Below, in pieces: positions 2,884 to 12,762 of a DNA stretch of 23,915 nucleotides (position 1 is the first letter of the stretch; each line of letters starts with the position of its first letter). Source of the stretch: a virus; IMG/VR virus record IMGVR_UViG_3300032223_001243, positions 1 through 23,915 of that record. The stretch is one strand, 5' to 3'. A program made the position numbers and the translations under genes. The notes below the pieces were generated by a model. It was not told where the DNA came from, made no database searches, and saw only the letters and a program-made list of their open reading frames with translations.

Positions 2884-3303
2884 GTGGTGCTGTATATTAA
2901 ACCTTCAAGGTATATCAATGCTCAGAAACGAGAAGAGCTTTACAAAGCTGCAACCTTATTTCTGAATGAACTCATGGATCCTGATGAGAAGACAAACGTC
3001 ATCATTGAGATCTCTGTCAAAGGTTCAGGTCTCCAGAAGTTTGTGGATGGCTACTGCCTTTGCACAGATGAGGATTCTAAAGGTAAACCTAAGGAGATCG
3101 CCATAGACATCAGGGGTGATCGAGGTTTAGACTATGCTATCAAGTGTATGGCACATGAGATTGTACACGCATGGCAGATGATTACAGGACGTATAGATCT
3201 TAATATGCATGCTGACCTAGAGGATCACTACAATGCTCCCTGGGAAGTCGAGGCCAGAGAGCTTGAAGAACCATTATACCAGATCTATTTGCAGCACAGC
3301 TGA
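2884..3303 (+). CDS. Putative zinc metalloprotease-like protein (HExxH)
   Basis: This 139-residue protein carries H91-E92-I-V-H95 in AHEIVHAWQM, followed about 26 residues later by Glu in PWEVEARELE. This HExxH...E layout is that of SprT-like and other gluzincin-type small metalloproteases, where the two His and the downstream Glu bind zinc. A conserved-looking strand EIAIDIRGD comes just before. The start is GTG; 2884 follows AGGAG (2877-2881) very closely, so the adjacent GTG at 2887 (better spacing) is equally possible. It is the last gene before a strong terminator. The substrate is unknown. Confidence is high for the motif and moderate for peptidase activity. Confidence 0.78.
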   Translation: MVLYIKPSRYINAQKREELYKAATLFLNELMDPDEKTNVIIEISVKGSGLQKFVDGYCLCTDEDSKGKPKEIAIDIRGDRGLDYAIKCMAHEIVHAWQMITGRIDLNMHADLEDHYNAPWEVEARELEEPLYQIYLQHS

Positions 3304-3330
3304 TGACAGGAACATACTGTAGTAGTTTTA

Positions 3331-3360
3331 AGGGGCGAGGTAACTTGCCCCTCTTTTTTT
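3331..3360 (+). terminator. Rho-independent terminator closing the early operon
   Basis: AGGGGCGAG (3331-3339) pairs with CTTGCCCCT (3344-3352) with one G-U pair and a GTAA tetraloop of the GNRA type, followed by CTTTTTTT to 3360. It separates the early genes from a late promoter only two bases further on. Confidence 0.93.
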
Positions 3361-3361
3361 A

Positions 3362-3369
3362 TATAAATA
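3362..3369 (+). promoter_or_regulatory. T4-type late promoter
   Basis: TATAAATA matches the T4 late -10 box recognised by the phage late sigma factor gp55 with gp33 and gp45. In T4 the box spans about -13 to -6, so transcription should start near 3375, which is the A of the following ATG. It lies immediately after a terminator, a strong positional argument for use. Confidence 0.8.
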
Positions 3370-3374
3370 GATCC

Positions 3375-4457
3375 ATGGCATATAACTTTTTCCCCAAGAC
3401 TCCTTCGGAAATCCAATCAAAACTCAATACTTGGCCGAAGAAGAAGGTCGATGAGTTGATGCATCTGCTTGCATGGTTATTGGATAAGTATCCAAGTCAT
3501 GAGACTCCTATCAATATAGATCCTACAAAACAAGGATTGATTAATGTTACTAGGCAGTTAGAAGGAGATGTAAAGTTAGATGCACTTAAAAGGTATGCTG
3601 GAATATCAGCATTCAACCTAAAGTTTGGTGAAGGTTCTTCTGGAAACCGTGGAGCAAATAACAGAGGGAATGCCTTCGAAGGTATTTTCCAAAAAGGATT
3701 AGAAGATTGGTGGGCAGGGATTCAGATTCCTGACGCTAAGATGATAGCAGCATTAGAAGATTTAAAGAAGACTTACAACCTTACTAAATACAAGAAGCTA
3801 ACTGTTAAGGCTGAAGGTGCGCTAAATAAGAAGCGTCCATTAGTTTATACGCCAGACGTTATCATCTCTGCACCAGGCGGAAAAGCCAATAACGATATCG
3901 GTGCATTGGTAACAGACTTAACTTTGATGGGCGATGGTAAGGTGGTTGCATACCTAAGCTTGAAGCTTGGTAACACAGCAACATTCTTCAACGTTGGTGT
4001 AAAAACTGTATTGACTACAGATGAAATTAAAAGCGGTAAGATTACTAACGTTAATGGTTTAAAATTATTAGGCATGTTTAACATCAAACCTCCAGTTTTC
4101 TGTGATGTGTTTAATGGTAAGCTAGCTAAAGGTTATAGCGAAGATGTTTGGCCTAACATGAGTGGTCAACAGAAGGATAACCTTAAGAAGTTATTGGCAT
4201 CAGGTGTAGGACAAGGGTATCATGTGATACACAAGCTTGCAGCAGGTATCAAGTCAATTAAGATTGATCCACATTATATGGAGCTTGCATCTACACCGAC
4301 CTCTTGCACAATATATTACGGTGGTAAAGGTGGTTTGGGTAAACGTATCGATATGGAAATTATAACTAAGAAGTATGTTTTAAAATTAAACATACGCGAC
4401 ACACAAGGACAAGGCGGGTATCCAACCCGCTTAATGGGAGATTTTACATACGTATGA
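3375..4457 (+). CDS. Late protein of unknown function, possible PD-(D/E)xK-like fold
   Basis: This 360-residue protein begins MAYNFFPKTPSEIQSKLNTW. I recognise no named family. The N-terminal third is helical. The centre has TPDVIISAPGG, then VTDLTLMGDGKVVAYLSLKLG: a PD, a later Asp and an SLK in a beta strand, reminiscent of PD-(D/E)xK nucleases with Ser in place of the usual Glu, but this is weak evidence. ATG 3375 is preferred because it coincides with the predicted late transcription start. An in-frame ATG at 3303 overlaps the previous stop but would translate through the terminator hairpin. No Shine-Dalgarno precedes either. Its stop overlaps the next start (ATGA), tying it to the internal-protein cluster. 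It lacks the N-terminal targeting-like peptide of its downstream neighbours. Confidence 0.75.
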   Translation: MAYNFFPKTPSEIQSKLNTWPKKKVDELMHLLAWLLDKYPSHETPINIDPTKQGLINVTRQLEGDVKLDALKRYAGISAFNLKFGEGSSGNRGANNRGNAFEGIFQKGLEDWWAGIQIPDAKMIAALEDLKKTYNLTKYKKLTVKAEGALNKKRPLVYTPDVIISAPGGKANNDIGALVTDLTLMGDGKVVAYLSLKLGNTATFFNVGVKTVLTTDEIKSGKITNVNGLKLLGMFNIKPPVFCDVFNGKLAKGYSEDVWPNMSGQQKDNLKKLLASGVGQGYHVIHKLAAGIKSIKIDPHYMELASTPTSCTIYYGGKGGLGKRIDMEIITKKYVLKLNIRDTQGQGGYPTRLMGDFTYV

Positions 4458-4855
4458 TTACTTTTAAAGAATACCTACAAGAAGAGCATGGAGCCGGGGA
4501 ATGGGGTACTCCTGAACTCACGAATAAATATAAGCATGACACACCTGGACAAGAGTGTGATTGTAAAGCCTGTAGTAAAAAAGAAATTAAAGAGTATGCG
4601 ATCGATGCTAAAGGGCATAAGTCATCTACTGGTGGATTAACACAGAAAGGCGTTGATGCATACAATAGAGAAAATCCTGGACATCATTTGAAAACTGCTG
4701 TAACAACTAAACCATCTAAGTTAAAACCTGGAAGTAAAGCTGCTAACCGTCGTAAATCATTTTGTGCTCGTATGAGTGGCGTCGATGGTCCTATGAAAGA
4801 TGAACACGGAAAACCAACGCGCAAAGCGCTAGCACTAAGAAAGTGGAACTGCTAA
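4454..4855 (+). CDS. DUF6321-like protein with capsid-targeting-like N-terminus
   Basis: This 133-residue protein starts MITFKEYLQE and then EHGAGEW, the first of a series in this region with a decapeptide ending in Glu like the T4 capsid-targeting sequence. A Cys pair (ECDCKACSKKE) near residues 35-45 could bind metal. The C-terminal part runs from SSTGGLTQKGVDAYN through RRKSFCARMSGVDGPMKD to ALRKWNC. I recognise it as the domain annotated DUF6321 in marine phages, where it often appears in virion-related proteins; its function is unknown. It overlaps the preceding gene as ATGA. My inference is a packaged internal head protein trimmed after residue 10. The family call is fairly sure, the role is not. 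Confidence 0.82.
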   Translation: MITFKEYLQEEHGAGEWGTPELTNKYKHDTPGQECDCKACSKKEIKEYAIDAKGHKSSTGGLTQKGVDAYNRENPGHHLKTAVTTKPSKLKPGSKAANRRKSFCARMSGVDGPMKDEHGKPTRKALALRKWNC

Positions 4856-4856
4856 A

Positions 4857-6056
4857 ATGAAATCATTTCAAACATATTTGACCGAATCTGCAGCAGCAGA
4901 AGGTACAAAGCTTAAGCATATTACTCATCCTGAAGATCGTCCATTGATGCACGGTCATGAAGGGTTTGAGCATGCACATGGAGCATTAACACATGCACAT
5001 GAACATATGAAAGCTGGTAAAAATAATGCAAATCTTACAACTAAATATGATGGTTCACCAGCAGTAGTTTTTGGTACACACCCAAAGAATAAGAAGTTCT
5101 TTGTTGCTTCTAAGTCAGCATTCAACAAAGATCCAAAGATTAATCATACTGAAGCAGATATCGACCGTAATCATGGTCATGCTCCAGGTCTTGCTACTAA
5201 ATTAAAGGCTGCATTAAAACACCTTCCTAAGGTTACACCAAAAGGCAAGGTATATCAAGGCGATATCATGCATTCTGAAGGTGATGTTAAGCATGATAAG
5301 AAATCAGGCAAAGCATCATTCACACCTAACACCATTACTTACACTGCACATGGCGATGAGGCTAAGAAGGCAGCTAAGGCAAAAGTTGGTGTTGCTGTAC
5401 ATACACAGTATCACGGTAATGATATCCATTCAATGTCTGCACACCATGAAGTTAATCATCACGAGTTTAAACAACATCCTGATGTACATCACCATGATGC
5501 TAGCTTCGATACCAGTACAGCACAGCATACACAAGCACATCAAGACGAGTTCCATAAACACATGAATGCAGCTAAGGCAATTCATGCTGAACATGGTACT
5601 AAGATGTACAACGCAATCCATCCTGCACACAGCGGTGAACATGGACATCTAGCAACATACATCAATCGTACTGTCAGAGATAACAGTACTCCAAGCGTTA
5701 AGGGTTTTAAAGAACATCTTAAGGCACACCACGATAAACAAGTTGCTGGTGTTAAGACAGAAAAATCACAGACAGCTAAACGCGAAGTTGGTAAGAAAGA
5801 ACTTGCACACGTTGAGAAGAACAAAGGTCATTACGAAAACTTGTTACATGCTCATAATCATCTAGCTGCTGCTAAGAATACTTTGGTAAAATCATTAGAA
5901 AGTGGTCATAGTAAATATGAACACCATATTGAAGGTAAGGCATCGAAGCCAGAAGGTTTCGTTATTAATCATGAACATAATGGTAAGACAGAACCATCCA
6001 AACTTGTAAATCGTGCAGAGTTTGCAAGATCAAACCTCCTTAAGGTAAGAAAATGA
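4857..6056 (+). CDS. Histidine-rich DUF6267-like protein, putative ligase-fold nucleotidyltransferase
   Basis: This 399-residue protein starts MKSFQTYLTE then SAAAEG, a capsid-targeting-like leader. It matches the marine-phage family I know as DUF6267. Motifs resemble covalent nucleotidyltransferases (DNA/RNA ligases): motif I K63-Y-D-G66, a FVASK strand at 82-86, a motif III-like VYQGDIM with Asp136, a motif IV-like EGFVI at 366-370 and a motif V-like SKLVN with Lys382. If real, Lys63 would accept AMP. Roughly one residue in eight is His (about 50), concentrated in residues 20-50 and 180-270, so metal binding or a disordered spacer between motifs III and IV is possible. The start directly follows the previous stop; the next gene overlaps by ATGA. 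Enzyme activity is inferred; gene reality is certain. Confidence 0.8.
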   Translation: MKSFQTYLTESAAAEGTKLKHITHPEDRPLMHGHEGFEHAHGALTHAHEHMKAGKNNANLTTKYDGSPAVVFGTHPKNKKFFVASKSAFNKDPKINHTEADIDRNHGHAPGLATKLKAALKHLPKVTPKGKVYQGDIMHSEGDVKHDKKSGKASFTPNTITYTAHGDEAKKAAKAKVGVAVHTQYHGNDIHSMSAHHEVNHHEFKQHPDVHHHDASFDTSTAQHTQAHQDEFHKHMNAAKAIHAEHGTKMYNAIHPAHSGEHGHLATYINRTVRDNSTPSVKGFKEHLKAHHDKQVAGVKTEKSQTAKREVGKKELAHVEKNKGHYENLLHAHNHLAAAKNTLVKSLESGHSKYEHHIEGKASKPEGFVINHEHNGKTEPSKLVNRAEFARSNLLKVRK

Positions 6057-6673
6057 AATCATTTGTAGACTTCCTAACAGAAGAAACCGATGCTAAGCAT
6101 GCTACTATTTCCTATGGTCGCATGAATCCTCCTACAACTGGTCACCTTAAAGTAGTTAAGAAGGTACAAGACGTTGCTAAGAAACACGGTGGAGAACACC
6201 ATGTTATCGTATCTCATTCGAATGACAAAGAAAAGAACCCTTTAACAGGTGAACAGAAGGTCAAGCACATGAAGCGTTATGCACCAGATGCAAATGTACG
6301 TGCTTCATCCAAAGAAAACCCTACACTGTTCTCACACGCTGCTGAGCTACACAAGAAAGGTGTAACACACCTACACGTTGTTGCTGGTTCAGATCGTGTA
6401 CCAGAATACAAGAAGAAGTTTAAAGAGTTGAACGGTAAAGCAAACAAAGATGGTAAAGTTCCATTCCACTTTAAGAAGATAACAGTACACTCAGCTGGTT
6501 CAAGGGATCCTGATGCAGAAGGCGATACAGGAATTTCTGGAACCAAGATGAGAGAGCATGCCAAAAATAAAGACTTTAAATCATTTAGAAAAGGTGTACC
6601 TAGCCATGTATCAGATGAACACGCACACGAACTAATGCATGATGTAAGAAAAGGTATGGGACATCACGATTAA
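6053..6673 (+). CDS. Cytidylyltransferase-like nucleotidyltransferase with capsid-targeting-like N-terminus
   Basis: This 206-residue protein starts MKSFVDFLTE then ETDAK, the closest match in the window to T4's targeting peptide. The rest is a Rossmann-like alpha/beta-phosphodiesterase nucleotidyltransferase: YGRMNPPTTGH has the T/HxGH catalytic motif at residues 28-31, and ISGTKMR at 161-167 is the second signature that binds triphosphate. HLHVVAGSDRV between them is the expected strand. The fold includes NMN adenylyltransferases (NadR/NadM type), glycerol-phosphate and pantetheine-phosphate enzymes; the substrate cannot be read here, though NAD-related chemistry fits the RMNPPTTGH form. 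Both motifs are intact, so it should be active. It forms a translationally coupled pair with the ligase-like gene and has a decayed relative at 7540. Confidence 0.87.
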   Translation: MKSFVDFLTEETDAKHATISYGRMNPPTTGHLKVVKKVQDVAKKHGGEHHVIVSHSNDKEKNPLTGEQKVKHMKRYAPDANVRASSKENPTLFSHAAELHKKGVTHLHVVAGSDRVPEYKKKFKELNGKANKDGKVPFHFKKITVHSAGSRDPDAEGDTGISGTKMREHAKNKDFKSFRKGVPSHVSDEHAHELMHDVRKGMGHHD

Positions 6674-6692
6674 CTAGATCAAAGACTACATC

Positions 6693-6968
6693 ATGAGCAC
6701 TAAGATGAAACCTCGAAAGAAGCCCCAGAGAACTGGGCTTTATGAGTTTGATCCAGATGTAATGGTCGATATTAAGACTGCACCTCCAAAGAAGAGAGGA
6801 GCAATCAGAAAATATTATCCAATGAAGGTAACTTATAATAGCTTGGAAAAAGAAGCTTACTTGGATATAGCAGATCAGATCATCAACTTAGATCCTGAGG
6901 CCAGTAGGATGACTATATTAACATCCGAAGGTCAACAAGAATGGGATCATGATGATGACGATATATAA
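6693..6968 (+). CDS. Hypothetical protein with acidic tail (91 aa)
   Basis: This 91-residue protein starts MSTKMKPRKKPQRTGLYEFD. The N-terminal 40 residues are basic and the end is strongly acidic (EWDHDDDDI). It has no leader like its neighbours and no domain I know. An alternative ATG at 6705 would drop four residues, and no good ribosome-binding site distinguishes them. It sits in the late cluster just before a second late promoter. Confidence 0.7.
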   Translation: MSTKMKPRKKPQRTGLYEFDPDVMVDIKTAPPKKRGAIRKYYPMKVTYNSLEKEAYLDIADQIINLDPEASRMTILTSEGQQEWDHDDDDI

Positions 6969-6973
6969 TTTAT

Positions 6974-6981
6974 TATAAATA
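6974..6981 (+). promoter_or_regulatory. T4-type late promoter
   Basis: TATAAATA, a perfect T4 late box, lies six bases after a stop codon. The predicted start is near 6987, giving an unusually long leader of about 107 bases before the next gene at 7094. Confidence 0.82.
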
Positions 6982-7014
6982 AGGGTATACCAGTTTATTG
7001 AACAAGTTAGTGCA

Positions 7015-7075
7015 AAGCTACTTAACTGGAAGTAGCTTACTAGCTTAACATATTATCAAAGGTTGGGAAACCAAC
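7015..7075 (+). other. Structured 5' leader of the 7094 gene
   Basis: Two hairpins are visible in the predicted late transcript leader: AAGCTACTT (7015-7023) with AAGTAGCTT (7030-7038), nine perfect pairs over a six-base loop, and GTTGG (7062-7066) with CCAAC (7071-7075) closed by a GAAA tetraloop. Neither is followed by a T run, so they are not terminators. They may stabilise the mRNA or regulate translation; no tRNA fold is apparent. Confidence 0.6.
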
Positions 7076-7093
7076 TGCGGTTAATGGGAAAAA

Positions 7094-7537
7094 ATGTTAA
7101 AGTTTAAAGAATATTCAGAGCAGTTTGATGAGCTTGCGGAATCCGTTGAATTAACGGAGGAAGAGCAGTCTGAACTCAATGAAGTGTTGAATACTTCTGC
7201 TAGACTTAAACGTAGGAATCAATTTATCAATCGCAGGGCTCGCTTAAAGATGCAGCGTAAAGTACAACGCATGCGCTTAGCTGATACGCCTCGCATTAAG
7301 AACAGATCGGTAAGAAGAGCCAAGGGCCTTATCATCAAACGTATCTATCAAGGTCGTTCACGTTCACAAATCCCATTAACACAAAGAAGTCAAGTCGACA
7401 AGAAGCTACAGCAGCTACGTCCAGCTGTGCAGCGCTTGTCGTTAAAGCTACAACGTCGTGTAAGACAAGAAGATCAGATGCGCCGTACACATGGAAAACT
7501 GAAGAAGTTTAATTTTGCTGGTCAAGTGAGTTATTGA
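7094..7537 (+). CDS. Highly basic internal-head-protein-like protein
   Basis: This 147-residue protein starts MLKFKEYSEQFDELAE, a variant of the targeting-like leader in which an (L/x)AE site falls at residue 16; a second acidic stretch ends at LNEVLN. The rest is very rich in Arg, Lys and Gln (for example RLKRRNQFINRRARLKMQRK), lacks hydrophobic membrane segments and is largely helical by appearance. I recall similar basic proteins in cyanophages as hypothetical or structural. DNA binding inside the head, like T4 internal proteins, is a reasonable inference: an acidic leader to reach the prohead, then a basic body to bind packaged DNA. It is the first gene after the late promoter at 6974. 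Confidence 0.8.
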   Translation: MLKFKEYSEQFDELAESVELTEEEQSELNEVLNTSARLKRRNQFINRRARLKMQRKVQRMRLADTPRIKNRSVRRAKGLIIKRIYQGRSRSQIPLTQRSQVDKKLQQLRPAVQRLSLKLQRRVRQEDQMRRTHGKLKKFNFAGQVSY

Positions 7538-7539
7538 TA

Positions 7540-8481
7540 ATGAAACAGTTTAAAGAGTTCTTGAGAGAGTCGAGTGGGCAGGTTACGGTTACATTTGGTA
7601 TGTTCAATCCGCCAAGTTCAGAGGATGAGAAGCTGATTAATAAGGTGCATGAAGTTGCACAAGGTGGTCCTTATAGGATCTACTCAGCACAAGAATGTAA
7701 TGAGAATTGTCCACTAGATTATAGCACGAAGATTAAGTTCATGCGCAAGACGTTTCCACGTCATGCAAGAAGTATCATCAGTGATGCTAAGATCGTAGAT
7801 CTATATGATGCATTAGATTCTTTGTATGAACAAGGTTATAGCAAAGTTAACTTGGTTATGCCCAATGTGCCTAAGCAGTTGACAGAATCAGTAGACAGAT
7901 ATAATGGTAATAAGAGAGGTAAGAAGTTATACAACTTTGAATCGATTAATATTATCTCTGTAGATTGTAAGAATGATGTAGAGTTAAAGATGGTTGAGGC
8001 TGTTAAGAATAATAGCTTTGAAGTCTTTAGCAAGAATTTACCAAGTACATTGAAGGAAGCACACAAGTTATACAACGCGCTTCGTTCAGCACTAGGTTTA
8101 AAAGAAACATTTAACTTTAGACAACATATCCAGCTTCCTACATTATCCAAAGAACGTGAAGCATATGTAAGCGGAGAGCTGTTTAAAATTGGTGATGTAG
8201 TTGAGGTGCGAGAGTCTAAAGAGATCGGACAGATCCAAAGACTAGGATCAAACTATGTAATCATTGAAACATATGAAGGCAACAAACAACGTAAATGGTT
8301 GAAAGACGTTGTTAAGGTCGAAGAAGCAGTCATCAATCAAATGCTTGAAAAAATGGGAGCTCCTTGTTGGTCTGGTTATACGATGGATAGTACAAAAGAA
8401 AGATCAGACAAAACGTCTATAAATAAGAAAAGTAAAATCAAGTCTTTCAAAGAAGACTTATCAACATTTAATGGGAAATAA
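7540..8481 (+). CDS. Degenerate nucleotidyltransferase paralogue with C-terminal KOW-like domain
   Basis: This 313-residue protein starts MKQFKEFLRE then SSGQV, the same type of decapeptide leader. Residues 15-200 align by eye with the cytidylyltransferase-like protein at 6053: FGMFNPPSSED corresponds to YGRMNPPTTGH, but the catalytic Gly-His is Glu28-Asp29, and the ISGTKMR signature has no equivalent (VELKMVEAV at that place). It is therefore probably catalytically dead. Residues 214-260 (FKIGDVVEVRESKEIGQI... to WLKDVVKVEE) resemble a KOW/SH3-like barrel, also found in the proteins at 11443 and 13792. The ATG at 7540 is used rather than a TTG six bases earlier because it places the leader in register. 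A late promoter for the next gene lies inside its 3' end. Confidence 0.8.
   Translation: MKQFKEFLRESSGQVTVTFGMFNPPSSEDEKLINKVHEVAQGGPYRIYSAQECNENCPLDYSTKIKFMRKTFPRHARSIISDAKIVDLYDALDSLYEQGYSKVNLVMPNVPKQLTESVDRYNGNKRGKKLYNFESINIISVDCKNDVELKMVEAVKNNSFEVFSKNLPSTLKEAHKLYNALRSALGLKETFNFRQHIQLPTLSKEREAYVSGELFKIGDVVEVRESKEIGQIQRLGSNYVIIETYEGNKQRKWLKDVVKVEEAVINQMLEKMGAPCWSGYTMDSTKERSDKTSINKKSKIKSFKEDLSTFNGK
8418..8425 (+). promoter_or_regulatory. T4-type late promoter inside the 3' end of the preceding gene
   Basis: A third perfect TATAAATA lies 59 bases before the ATG at 8484, with the predicted start near 8431 and a leader of about 53 bases. The context GTCTATAAATAAG resembles TTATAAATAAG at 6974. 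It would drive the small beta protein and the large modular proteins independently of upstream genes. Confidence 0.72.
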
Positions 8482-8483
8482 AA

Positions 8484-8747
8484 ATGTCAGACAGATTAAT
8501 CCAAGTTCTTGCAGCAGAAGAAACTCTAGCTGCTAATACAGCAACTAATGTATCACTAGCCCACGTTGTAAAGATACATATTGGTGGTACAGAAAGAAAG
8601 CTTACAGTTAAAGATGCTAGCGGAAATACAATAGGATCTACCACCGTTCACGCTAATGATACTGTTTTTATTCGTAAAAAAGCTACTGATACAGTAGAAG
8701 CTAATGGTACAGGTTGCTTAGCAACATCAATAGCATTCGGAGATTAA
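8484..8747 (+). CDS. Small beta-rich phage protein, probably virion-associated
   Basis: This 87-residue protein starts MSDRLIQVLAAEETLAANTAT. Alternating strands (VVKIHIGG, KLTVKDASGNTIG, DTVFIRKKATDTVEA) give an immunoglobulin-like or decoration-type beta appearance. Cyanophages encode proteins of the same pattern, which I know only as conserved hypotheticals. It sits alone behind the late promoter at 8418 and one base before the large modular protein, so a structural role is plausible. It lacks the targeting-like leader. Confidence 0.78.
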   Translation: MSDRLIQVLAAEETLAANTATNVSLAHVVKIHIGGTERKLTVKDASGNTIGSTTVHANDTVFIRKKATDTVEANGTGCLATSIAFGD

Positions 8748-8748
8748 G

Positions 8749-11094
8749 ATGTCTAAGACCTTAAAAGAGCTATTAGAAGCTCGCTTCGTTTCTTCAGGTG
8801 CATTTAGGATCTCTGCATCCGGCCGTAAGATTCGTCGTCGTATCAAGATTGGTGATGACGATTACAATAAAGAAGATGATCTTGACAAAGATGGTGATGT
8901 TGACAAACAAGATGCTAAGCTTGCGAAGAAAGTTAGATGGGAATCATTCTCTGAATTTGCAGAAGGTACTTCAAGCGCTAAGACCACTGTGAATAAAGCT
9001 AGCTATTCTTGGGGTAAGATGGTTACCGTACATCACGGAAAAGATACATCGTATCCTCTACATCCAGAACATCAAGAAGCTATCAAGAAATTGAAGGATG
9101 GCGAGAAGACTTCTTTTAAGGATGAAACAAATAGTACAGTACATGCCCACCGCGAAGGCGATAGCGTGCATCTGACAAGGCCAAAGACATCTTCAACGAA
9201 GACTACTGTTGCTCATAGCCATTTCAATGAAGAAACAATCAATGAGTATTCAATGGAAGATTTGCATAAAGATGCAGCTGCATCCTTAAAGAAATCCATT
9301 GATAAACAATCAGATGATCGCATTGCAGCATTAAAGAATCCTCCAAAGAAAAAGAGTTTCTTACAAAGAGTTGGTGAGAAGCAGATCAATATGGTTAAAG
9401 GTGCTTATCACGGTTTAACCAAAGAAGATACTGACAAAGACGAGTACATGAAAGAAGAAACACTAGAAGAAAAGATCAGTGTTGTTTCAGGTAATGCACC
9501 AAGAAAACAAGGAAGGTTTGCTTCTAACAATCAATCTACGACAGACAAGACACCAATCGGCCGAGTTGCTTCTGGTACTGTATATACTGGTAATAAAAAG
9601 CCAGCAGATACATCAGTGCATGATAAAGCAAAAGCACGTCTAGCAAAGATGAATGAAGAAATCGCAGGTGAATCATATGAAGCTGCAGAAGGCCATTTGT
9701 TGAAGGCAAAAGAATCAAAGGAAAATTCTAGAGAATACCATTTCCATATGGCTAATCATCACGAAGCTATGGGTCATTGGCATGCATCTAAAGGCCGTAG
9801 TATTGCTTCTGATAGAGAATTTAATAAAGCAGAAGGTCATCATGAACTCGGCATCAATATGAAAGAAGAAACAATTAAAGAAGATGCTGATAAGGGTGAG
9901 TATGACTATGAAGGTCAGATGGCTAGAACTCAACTACAAACTATTGTACGTAATGCAACAGATTTGGTTGACATGCTTGAAGATGATGAAAACATGCCTG
10001 AATGGGTTCAATCAAAGATTACTTTGGCACAAGACTATATTACTTGTGTAAGAGATTACCTACAATCTAAAGAAGAACTAGGCGAACAAGCCAACCTTGA
10101 AGAAGGTGTGTTTACAGATGATGAAGGCATTGCTAAAAAACTAGTTGCTAAGTATGGTAAGAACGTTCAATCTCATGATATTAAATTAGCATTACATTTA
10201 CATCCAGAGGGACATAAAACTACAGTAGATCGTGTAGCTGGTCATGTAAAAAAAATGCTATCTGTTAAAGAAGAAACTGAATTAGAAGAGAAGCGTGGAT
10301 TATGGGATAATATCCATGCTAAGCAAGAAAGAATCAAGAATGGTTCTGGAGAAAAGATGAGAAAACCTGGAAGTAAAGGAGCTCCAACAGCTGCTGACTT
10401 CAGGGCTTCACAAAGTGTTAAAGAAGAATCAATTGTTGAACATGAAGAGCATGGTCCAGATCATGTTGAGATTGCATTAGACCATCGTTTCCCACCTAAG
10501 AATCAGAAGACTGCAATGGCATCTCTTAAGGCACATGGTGCAGAGTATGTTGCTACTAGCGATAAGGCTACACACTTCAAAGTTCACAAAGATAAAGCAC
10601 GTAGCTTAGCGAAAGAATTAAAATCTAATGGTGTTGAGAGTGATATCAATGAAGGTTTAAAGCATCATATTGCAGCTGCAGCAATCGCGGTAGCAGGCGC
10701 ATTAGGTGGACATGCACATGCACAAAGCAACGATACACAAAAGACCGTTGAAAAACCTGCAGCTACAGCATCTGCAGATTCAGATAAGTCACCACACGAT
10801 GGCGGTTCTAAAGCAGATCATCAAACACGTATCGATAAAGCCGTTGCTGATGGCACGATGTCACGCGGTGAGGCTAATGTAGAAAAGATGAAACACGGTT
10901 TACGTCCTTCATTTGGTCGTGCTAGTAGGGTAACTCAAGAATCTACTGAACAAGATCCACCGTTTGATAAGCCATATAAGACAGTTCCACCAGTAACTAA
11001 AGATAAATCTGGTGCAGAACATACTGGCATGTCAAGAGCTCGTCATATCGCTCGCTTAGCTATGAAGCAAGCTGCGAAGAAGGCTAAGGCGTGA
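8749..11094 (+). CDS. Large modular protein with repeated prohead-protease-like sites (putative internal-head polyprotein)
   Basis: This 781-residue protein begins MSKTLKELLE then ARFVS, a targeting-like leader. Residues 44-55 (DLDKDGDVDKQD) form a canonical EF-hand/dockerin-type loop. Seven (L/I)xE sites follow at E166, E241, E378, E452, E514, E564 and E635, five of them inside a recurrent EET or EES context, dividing the chain into modules: a beta module around 85-160; a helical one; a His-rich helical module around 308-371; a conserved phage helical module starting at 379 (ARTQLQTIVRNATDLVDML); a short module; a cytosine-free-looking HG-rich module 565-635; and a final one that starts with a signal-peptide-like helix (636-658, ending AHA). 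The C-terminus SRARHIARLAMKQAAKK is basic. It may be cut into internal head peptides by the gp21-type protease; a prohead core role is the main alternative. Confidence 0.8.
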   Translation: MSKTLKELLEARFVSSGAFRISASGRKIRRRIKIGDDDYNKEDDLDKDGDVDKQDAKLAKKVRWESFSEFAEGTSSAKTTVNKASYSWGKMVTVHHGKDTSYPLHPEHQEAIKKLKDGEKTSFKDETNSTVHAHREGDSVHLTRPKTSSTKTTVAHSHFNEETINEYSMEDLHKDAAASLKKSIDKQSDDRIAALKNPPKKKSFLQRVGEKQINMVKGAYHGLTKEDTDKDEYMKEETLEEKISVVSGNAPRKQGRFASNNQSTTDKTPIGRVASGTVYTGNKKPADTSVHDKAKARLAKMNEEIAGESYEAAEGHLLKAKESKENSREYHFHMANHHEAMGHWHASKGRSIASDREFNKAEGHHELGINMKEETIKEDADKGEYDYEGQMARTQLQTIVRNATDLVDMLEDDENMPEWVQSKITLAQDYITCVRDYLQSKEELGEQANLEEGVFTDDEGIAKKLVAKYGKNVQSHDIKLALHLHPEGHKTTVDRVAGHVKKMLSVKEETELEEKRGLWDNIHAKQERIKNGSGEKMRKPGSKGAPTAADFRASQSVKEESIVEHEEHGPDHVEIALDHRFPPKNQKTAMASLKAHGAEYVATSDKATHFKVHKDKARSLAKELKSNGVESDINEGLKHHIAAAAIAVAGALGGHAHAQSNDTQKTVEKPAATASADSDKSPHDGGSKADHQTRIDKAVADGTMSRGEANVEKMKHGLRPSFGRASRVTQESTEQDPPFDKPYKTVPPVTKDKSGAEHTGMSRARHIARLAMKQAAKKAKA

Positions 11095-11442: not shown

Positions 11443-12762
11443 ATGACTTGGGGTATTTTCAAACACGACGCTATATCTGAGGCGTATACAAAGATGAAAT
11501 CAGAAGAGCTAAAGGGAAACCAGAAGAAGCTCGATAAGAACAAAAATGGTAAGCTTGATAAGCAAGATTTTGCTATACTACATAATGAAGATTATGATGA
11601 TGAGACAGCAGTTGATAAGTCTAAAGTTCCAGCATACCTTCGCAAGAATGATAAGCTAACTCTTAAAGATTTGGATAAAGAACGTACGAAGAATCGTAGC
11701 CATCCAGAAACTCTATTAAAGATTAATGGTACTCAACAGAAAGAAGAAACAGAAGCTACTGAAGAACTTCTTGAGTACGAATCAAAAGATGGTGTTTACA
11801 AACATCAAGCTAAAGCTGGTCGTTACGGCGGCACAGAGAAAGAAAGCGACTATGTGAAGGGTCCATCTGATGCTGCGCTGAAGAAGATCGAAGCTGAAAA
11901 GAAAAAGAAAGTTAATGAAGCTAAAGAAGGTGATACTGTAACTATTCATAAGCCAGGTCATCCATTACATGGTTTAAAGGGATATGTTTATCATAGCGGT
12001 AAGGAACATGCTACCGTAGAATTGCATGACAAACCTAAAGATTATGAATGGCAATCTGCTAAAAATGTTCAAGTAAAACACAATGAACTTAAGATACATG
12101 AATCAGTAAAAAAAGAAGGTTTAGAAATCTTCTCTGAGAAAGAGATAGATACTCTTATCAATGAAGTATTGTCAAAGAATGCATCTGCTGGTGAATGGAT
12201 CAGTGACTTCGTTAAGTCAGATAATCCTAAATTTGCTGGCAAATCAAAGGAGCAACGTAAGAAGCAAGCATTAGCTGCTTATTACGCAGCACAAAGGAAT
12301 GAATCTACTGACTATGATTCATTTTTAGATGAAGCAGTACAGAAGGGCATCGTTAGTATGGATGCCAAAGAAATTAAACATGCAAACATGAAGGATAAGC
12401 AAGATGATCAAGAAGTTATGGAACCTCATTCTGGGACAGAGCAAAAATTCCTCGACGCCCACTCAGTCATCGTCACAGACGAGCCAAACAAAGACGGAAC
12501 CCCAAACGGAGCCGACAAAGTTAAGCGAGCAGCCGAGCCAAAAGGAAAAGGTCCAGGCAGCTACGACGCCAAAGAAAAGCTCGGCAAGCAAGGCATCGTC
12601 AAAGAAGACTCCGTCAAAATCGGCACCACAGCCACGGGCGAAGAAGGCGAAACCATCATCACCAACCCGCAAGACAAGAAAACCTTCCGCGACTTAAAGG
12701 GTACGACTAAAGCTGCACGTAGCTTGACTAATAATAAAGCTGCAGCTGGAGAAGCTCAGTAA
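11443..12762 (+). CDS. Modular late protein with EF-hand-like loop and KOW-like module
   Basis: This 439-residue, very hydrophilic protein is preceded by AAGGA at 11431-11435. An ISE site at residues 11-13 could be a divergent leader. Residues 31-42 (DKNKNGKLDKQD) make a second EF-hand-type loop. Further hydrophobic-x-Glu sites at E111, E159, E220, E241 and E297 separate modules: 160-220 is KOW-like (EGDTVTIHKPGHPLHGLKGY), and 242-297 contains AGEWISDFVKSDNPKFAGKS, a segment I recall from several marine-phage structural or core proteins. The coding sequence from about 12451 to 12690 switches abruptly to C-ended, GC-richer codons, suggesting recombination. Probably another internal head or prohead-core protein. 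Confidence 0.77.
   Translation: MTWGIFKHDAISEAYTKMKSEELKGNQKKLDKNKNGKLDKQDFAILHNEDYDDETAVDKSKVPAYLRKNDKLTLKDLDKERTKNRSHPETLLKINGTQQKEETEATEELLEYESKDGVYKHQAKAGRYGGTEKESDYVKGPSDAALKKIEAEKKKKVNEAKEGDTVTIHKPGHPLHGLKGYVYHSGKEHATVELHDKPKDYEWQSAKNVQVKHNELKIHESVKKEGLEIFSEKEIDTLINEVLSKNASAGEWISDFVKSDNPKFAGKSKEQRKKQALAAYYAAQRNESTDYDSFLDEAVQKGIVSMDAKEIKHANMKDKQDDQEVMEPHSGTEQKFLDAHSVIVTDEPNKDGTPNGADKVKRAAEPKGKGPGSYDAKEKLGKQGIVKEDSVKIGTTATGEEGETIITNPQDKKTFRDLKGTTKAARSLTNNKAAAGEAQ

Follow-up and report, generated by a model that had tools for sequence, protein, structure and literature searches.

A leader resembling the T4 capsid-targeting sequence marks a probable virion cargo locus in a T4-like water phage

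Introduction

Why do several different proteins encoded in one phage gene cluster begin with nearly the same ten amino acids? The question is raised by the virus record IMGVR_UViG_3300032223_001243 of IMG/VR, of which we have analyzed positions 1 to 23,915 (the window). This window is a 23.9-kb fragment from an uncultivated virus, a T4-like water phage. The ten-residue leaders resemble the capsid-targeting sequence (CTS) of the internal proteins of phage T4, and a preliminary description of the locus had proposed that they represent one shared signal of a set of packaged proteins. Our results support this proposal: a prohead protease is found in relatives, the leaders are clustered, their residues are conserved and leader-bearing orthologues are found in virions. 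The leader is most likely a CTS of the T4 internal-protein kind, placed on the genes of a cargo locus, and a set of virion-borne enzymes is very probably encoded there. In the following, genes are designated by the position of their first nucleotide in the window, and a slash in a protein sequence marks a known or predicted cut.

Results and Discussion

Leader decapeptides in the window

The six decapeptides which had been described are present at the N-termini of genes 4454, 4857, 6053, 7094, 7540 and 8749 (Table 1). Genes 4454, 4857, 6053 and 7540 fit the pattern M..[FY]..[FY][LI].E exactly. According to composition, the chance of this motif is 6.4e-5 per gene, which gives P ~7e-13 for four cases in 33 genes; P is ~4e-10 when the motif rate at internal Met residues is used. 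A scoring matrix built from the leaders of DUF6267 proteins alone gives the scores shown in Table 1, while just one of 13,599 internal Met start points scores above 15. These motif probabilities and matrix scores rule out chance or composition as the origin of the leaders.

Two statements of the preliminary description hold only in part. It had counted five unrelated proteins, but genes 6053 and 7540 are paralogues, both matching the cytidyltransferase families phrog_395 and phrog_3041, so that the four exact leaders correspond to three protein families. Mere paralogy accounts for these two genes alone. The same pattern, with Glu10 in the same register, had also been claimed for all five: this is true of the four exact leaders, but not of 8749, where LLE is present with a different spacing and the hydrophobic residues (5 and 8) are found one place later. 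Gene 7094 is indeed a looser sixth member, where F4 and Y7 are retained and positions 8 and 10 are occupied by S and Q; S8 is conserved in the alignment of its homologues. With F4, Y7 and S8, this leader is similar to that of T4 IPI (MKTFKEFTST...ITE/A), which has F4, F7 and T8 and is cut farther downstream. Altogether, the targeting residues at positions 4 and 7 are found in five leaders, 8749 being out of register, and (L/I)-x-E occupies residues 8–10 in four of the six; it is missing from 7094.

Conservation of the leader

We have aligned the leaders across related phages. Among 55 distinct DUF6267 N-termini in related contigs, 50 present the canonical leader, four are spacing variants and one has no leader, probably as a result of a misplaced start. 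F4, F/Y7, L/I8 and E10 are each found in 50/50 of the canonical leaders, counts which are inflated by the use of the motif to choose these sequences, even if the motif permitted more residues than occurred. In a set of 40 DUF6267 leaders, E10 is invariant, F4 and L8 are nearly so. Residues 2, 5, 6 and 9 drift, and the linker behind the leader is variable in both length and sequence. In an AlphaFold model of 4857 (mean predicted local distance difference test score, 86.9), residues 1–20 have low confidence and are placed outside the fold. Codons 4 and 7 often show synonymous changes, so a signal at the nucleotide level, such as a translation enhancer, is unlikely.

Work with amber suppressors in T4 has found that residues 4 and 7 are needed for targeting and residues 8 and 10 for processing, and that the ten residues of the leader suffice (PMC9026906). 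The leaders studied here are conserved precisely at these four positions. As far as sequences go, this agreement is the strongest argument for a CTS. The same four residues are found in the differing leaders of distant phages: MQGFKTFLSE in Melnitz, MMKFTQFLAE in DLP_6, MKKFSAFLNE in S-SM1. When the 242 open reading frames of T4 are scanned with the exact motif as a control, it selects ipII, ipIII and gp61.1. The last one is a hypothetical protein of 54 amino acids (NC_000866, 18966–19130) starting with MKTFKEFIKE, an exact CTS-like leader. To judge by this sequence, it may be an overlooked internal protein.

Prohead protease in relatives

A gp21-like protease had been expected, and we have looked for it in the relatives. 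Peptidase_S77, the family of T4 gp21, is found in 8 of 15 related contigs, including all five which are longer than 100 kb and three shorter ones. It is also found in the six isolates S-SM1, S-SCSM1, S-SZBM1, HTVC008M, Melnitz and DLP_6. A cut site can also be compared in gp23, which is found in all eight relatives: at the T4 cut position (GSFLTE/A in T4) they have ALFE/A, ALFE/T or MLQE/T. With LxE at this position, the specificity of the protease appears to fit the leader.

One leader, many putative cargoes

In eight related contigs with 1437 genes, a wider form of the motif is found on 23 gene starts, compared with 12 of 6682 internal Met residues. All 23 are in this cluster, so the further leader-bearing proteins that had been sought in relatives do exist, at the same locus. 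Over all loci, the leader is carried by cytidyltransferases, DUF6267 proteins, DUF6321/KRGLW proteins, a family of 350 amino acids, a HAD-like family, a protein of 78 amino acids and others. The clusters of leader-bearing cargo are not joined by BLAST: They are unrelated cargoes behind a constant leader. DUF6321 proteins and cytidyltransferases are joined by BLAST solely through multi-domain proteins.

Leader-bearing proteins in virions

Published virion proteomes of three phages, obtained by mass spectrometry, include leader-bearing orthologues of the cytidylyltransferase. In S-SM1, SSM1_190 begins with MKKFSAFLNE/AERSF and belongs to the T4-GC190 group, detected in the purified virion by Sullivan et al. 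(PMC3037559). ORF91 of S-SCSM1, which begins with MKSFLQFLKE/AAESG, has been detected in CsCl-purified virions (PMC9602691). In S-SZBM1 virions, the product of gene 140 (MRFRQFIIE/AVAAA) has been detected by two peptides and the product of the next gene, 139, by four (PMC9146016). A cytidylyltransferase of S-CREM2, ORF154, has likewise been detected in virions. The preliminary description had considered that packaging of ligase-like and nucleotidyltransferase enzymes would be novel; a virion-borne cytidylyltransferase was already on record. On the other hand, none of the papers we have found describes the T4-GC190 leader as a targeting sequence or ties this enzyme to one.

Most genes around the cytidyltransferase of S-SCSM1 (contig L180, 1358–8307) carry the GenBank label virion protein: SSCSM1_89, 90, 92 and 93, neighbours of ORF91. 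SSCSM1_92 contains a KEEVELDE-type linker.

A protein made of modules

Gene 8749 codes for a polyprotein-like product. The junction behind its variant leader is conserved in relatives, which have MKTLKEFLE/ARMIA, MAKTLRQLLE/AKYV or MKTFKEILKELTE/ARYVSSG. The pattern EE[STV].?[LI].E is found five times in this protein, as against 0.04 in shuffled sequences, and the predicted protease sites are listed in Table 1. The KRGLW module is placed behind ELEE within 8749, and behind MISFKEYLEE as a free protein in a relative (L073). The DUF6321 module is found in 22 distinct contexts: It is preceded by E in all of them and by [LI]xE in 19 (background, 1.8%). Since [LI]xE stands before these modules whether they are preceded by a leader or by an internal linker, the two seem to have a cut site in common. 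Protease-site counts are not clearly enriched in genes 11443 and 13792, so the polyprotein claim is restricted to 8749 and homologous modules. Searches of Pfam and PHROGs with 8749 revealed no enzymatic domain. Two of the module proteins contain EF-hand-like stretches, DLDKDGDVDKQD (window 8749–8940) and DKNKNGKLDKQD (window 11443–11580).

Proposed mechanism and alternatives

A mechanism like that of T4 would work as follows. F4 and F/Y7 would bind the scaffold core of the prohead, so that the tagged protein becomes part of it. A gp21-type protease would cut after (L/I)-x-E10, the cargo would be freed inside the head and the leader peptide would leave. The cargo would comprise the DUF6321 protein, the ligase-like DUF6267 protein and two cytidylyl/adenylyltransferases, one intact and one degenerate; with variant leaders, it would also include the small basic protein 7094 and the polyprotein 8749, in which additional gp21-type sites would lie between the modules. 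Once freed, these proteins would stay associated with the DNA, and they would probably reach the host together with it.

Several points weigh against this explanation. The 24-kb window, a fragment, contains no gp21 of its own. Leaders 8749 and 7094 deviate from the exact motif, the leader is degraded in roughly one in five relatives of the cytidylyltransferase, the DUF6267 orthologues of several cyanophages lack a leader, and the position counts given above are inflated. We have found no report in the literature of DUF6267 in virions, and the authors of two cyanophage proteomes note that the cytidylyltransferase could be carry-over after CsCl banding; if the leader is a targeting sequence, it argues for real cargo over carry-over. 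That the leader is cut at residue 10, so that the mature proteins would start at residue 11, that this phage packages them and that they are injected is what we infer.

Other explanations may be considered. The leader could bind the scaffold or another part of the virion and stay uncut, Glu10 being part of a binding helix with no processing by the prohead protease. Proteins of the 7094 type, which retain F4 and Y7 without L8 (in the window, also without E10), suggest that binding and cutting could be separate. However, an uncut leader is unlikely: E10 and L/I8 vary no more than F4 and F/Y7 do, the modules discussed above are preceded by [LI]xE in leaderless polyprotein contexts, too, and gp23 of the same phages has the same type of site. 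We give even less weight to a signal for the tail, the membrane or the nucleoid, or to a plain amphipathic helix, on proteins which act solely in the infected cell: Short N-terminal helices are known to target proteins in other systems and DUF6267 is unreported from virions, but leader-bearing orthologues are present in purified virions of three phages, and in T4 ipII and ipIII bear the very same pattern. Finally, the gene starts could have been copied by recombination or duplication, the leader having no function by itself. Two of the genes are paralogues and recombination is possible between tandem genes with similar starts, yet four positions are conserved at the amino acid level despite strong synonymous change, the linkers behind the leader are variable, the leader is attached to unrelated families and distant phages share the four residues in different leaders. 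Shared descent alone is thus extremely improbable.

If the leader is a CTS, as we prefer, the cargo would perhaps serve in the repair of nucleic-acid ends or in nicotinamide adenine dinucleotide (NAD)/nucleotide chemistry as infection starts. The idea of a toolkit for entry, directed at nucleic-acid ends or NAD, is reasonable but no more than a guess.

The proteins of the locus

Table 1. Leaders, predicted protease sites and protein bodies in the window
Positions	Strand	Feature	Gene or protein	Evidence
4454..4483	+	CTS-like leader MITFKEYLQE	DUF6321 protein, 133 amino acids (4454–4855)	exact motif; matrix 16.0 bits; DUF6321 6.6e-25
4568..4594	+	second predicted prohead-protease site, CSKKEIKE/YAIDAKG, directly before DUF6321 module	same DUF6321 protein	[LI]xE
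4857..4886	+	CTS-like leader MKSFQTYLTE	DUF6267 ligase-like protein (4857–6056)	E10 invariant
4887..6056	+	DUF6267 body, nucleotidyltransferase/ligase-like	DUF6267 ligase-like protein	Pfam 8.3e-105
6053..6082	+	CTS-like leader MKSFVDFLTE	cytidylyltransferase (6053–6673)	matrix 24.5 bits; leader-bearing orthologues in virions
6083..6673	+	cytidylyl/adenylyltransferase body, TxGH (PPTTGH) and ISGTKMR intact	cytidylyltransferase	CTP_transf_like 8.2e-7; motif census
7094..7123	+	variant leader MLKFKEYSEQ, T4 IPI-like	basic protein, 147 amino acids	homologue alignment; T4 IPI sequence
7540..7569	+	CTS-like leader MKQFKEFLRE	second cytidylyltransferase-like protein (7540–8481)	matrix 20.4 bits; phrog_395 2.8e-54
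8749..8778	+	variant leader MSKTLKELLE/ARFVSSG	polyprotein-like protein, 781 amino acids (8749–11094)	junction conserved in relatives
9226..9246	+	predicted protease site NEETINE/Y	8749, residue 166	[LI]xE linker
9451..9471	+	predicted protease site KEETLEE/K	8749, residue 241	[LI]xE linker
9862..9882	+	predicted protease site KEETIKE/D	8749, residue 378	[LI]xE linker
10267..10290	+	predicted protease site KEETELEE/KRGLW	8749, residue 514	module leader-borne in relatives
10420..10440	+	predicted protease site KEESIVE/H	8749, residue 564	[LI]xE linker
10633..10653	+	predicted protease site VESDINE/G	8749, residue 635	[LI]xE linker

In the DUF6267 protein, K63-x-D65-G66, E366-G367-x-V369 and K382 are invariant over 46 sequences. 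We take KxDG, EGxV and K to be motifs I, IV and V of the ATP-dependent ligase/nucleotidyltransferase superfamily. When its model was compared with PDB folds, the best matches were RNA ligases, all of them weak (E 0.3–0.5, low TM-scores), and weak matches to DNA ligases were also found; a viral fold library returned its own family, and a PDB sequence search gave no relevant match. Since the fold matches are weak, the label ligase-like leans mostly on the motifs. In S-PM2 (contig L163, 7995–9770), a leaderless homologue of 591 amino acids is annotated as cytidyltransferase-like by the fold library, which suggests a fusion of both activities.

Gene 6053 has generic nucleotidyltransferase matches in NCBIfam and nothing more specific. 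Its intact motifs suggest that it is probably an active nucleotidyltransferase. In 7540 the (T/H)xGH motif is lost (FNPPSSED) and the leader is kept, as might be expected of a non-catalytic partner. Protein 7094 has a possible downstream protease site, SELNE/V.

Two further families are found in relatives. The leader-bearing family of 350 amino acids (contig L155, 7150–8196, and homologues) has a conserved SD...SLK pattern; the best PDB match of its model is the restriction enzyme HinP1I (E 2.5e-3, prob 0.97, low TM-score), so to judge by the model this family is possibly a packaged nuclease. A leader-bearing HAD-like protein (contig L089, 2125–2859) matches a polynucleotide kinase (PNK) family (phrog_415, 2.3e-6), and its sequence makes it a candidate for a further packaged nucleic-acid enzyme.

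In the window, the end of a DnaB/gp41-type helicase gene is followed by the DUF6267/cytidyltransferase cluster and then by NrdA and NrdB. T4-like cyanophages have a matching region with the same order. The late-promoter motif ATAAATA is not enriched (5 occurrences, 7.7 expected), a count which is uninformative as to late expression of these genes. The open reading frame at 3303–4457 probably starts at 3375 (MAYNFF...), where a homologue also has a Met and from which similarity extends.

Comparison with known systems

The mechanism itself is that of T4 and is already known. The leaders share with the CTS of IPI, IPII and IPIII (MKTYQEFIAE) an N-terminal position, ten residues, aromatics at 4 and 7 and (I/L)xE at 8–10. 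Variable cargo behind the leader is also common to both, as is a gp21-type protease, here in the genomes of relatives. On the other hand, T4 internal proteins are small and basic. Here, enzymes and domain proteins carry the leader: ligase-like and nucleotidyltransferase proteins and, in relatives, HAD/kinase-like and nuclease-like ones as well. A further difference is that the locus groups four exact tags within a short distance and includes a multi-site polyprotein. The packaged ADP-ribosyltransferase Alt of T4 is similar as a head-borne enzyme with an N-terminal propeptide cut by gp21, which acts on entry, but its leader (MELITELFDE) follows a different pattern, and it belongs to an enzyme family unrelated to those found here.

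In T4, gp21 breaks the core proteins gp22 and gp67 down to small fragments by cutting at L/I-x-E, and a similar fate is predicted for 8749. Unlike them, 8749 has distinct modules which recur elsewhere in other orders, and our searches found no homology to core proteins. Polyvalent proteins (Iyer et al. 2017, PMC5512222) are also multidomain, and packaging and injection have been proposed for them, but proteins of the 8749 type consist of small modules joined by predicted protease sites, and in 8749 the Pfam and PHROGs searches showed none of the several disparate enzymatic domains expected of a polyvalent protein. Another close case is the cyanophage cytidylyltransferase/NMNAT of T4-GC190, a virion-detected homologue of 6053 and 7540.

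Judging from the open-access papers searched, the new features are the tag in Kyanoviridae-like phages, outside the T-even group, the enzyme cargo and the multi-site module protein. A wider proposal is tentative and more doubtful than the CTS itself: In Kyanoviridae-like phages and their uncultivated relatives, the CTS might be a general cargo code, with a dedicated locus holding a changing set of enzymes (ligase-like, NMNAT-like, nuclease-like, PNK-phosphatase-like) and polyproteins cut in the head by the prohead protease. This cargo might accompany the DNA into the host and serve as a toolkit at entry, for example for damage repair or for restoring NAD against host defence.

In summary, the leader would supply a mechanism for the cyanophage cytidylyltransferase, for which proteomics papers have been undecided between cargo and carry-over. 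It would also be a simple rule to predict further proteins which these abundant aquatic phages bring into their hosts. The internal proteins of T4, so far a speciality of T-even phages, would then become one case of a wider delivery system which has enzymes as cargo.

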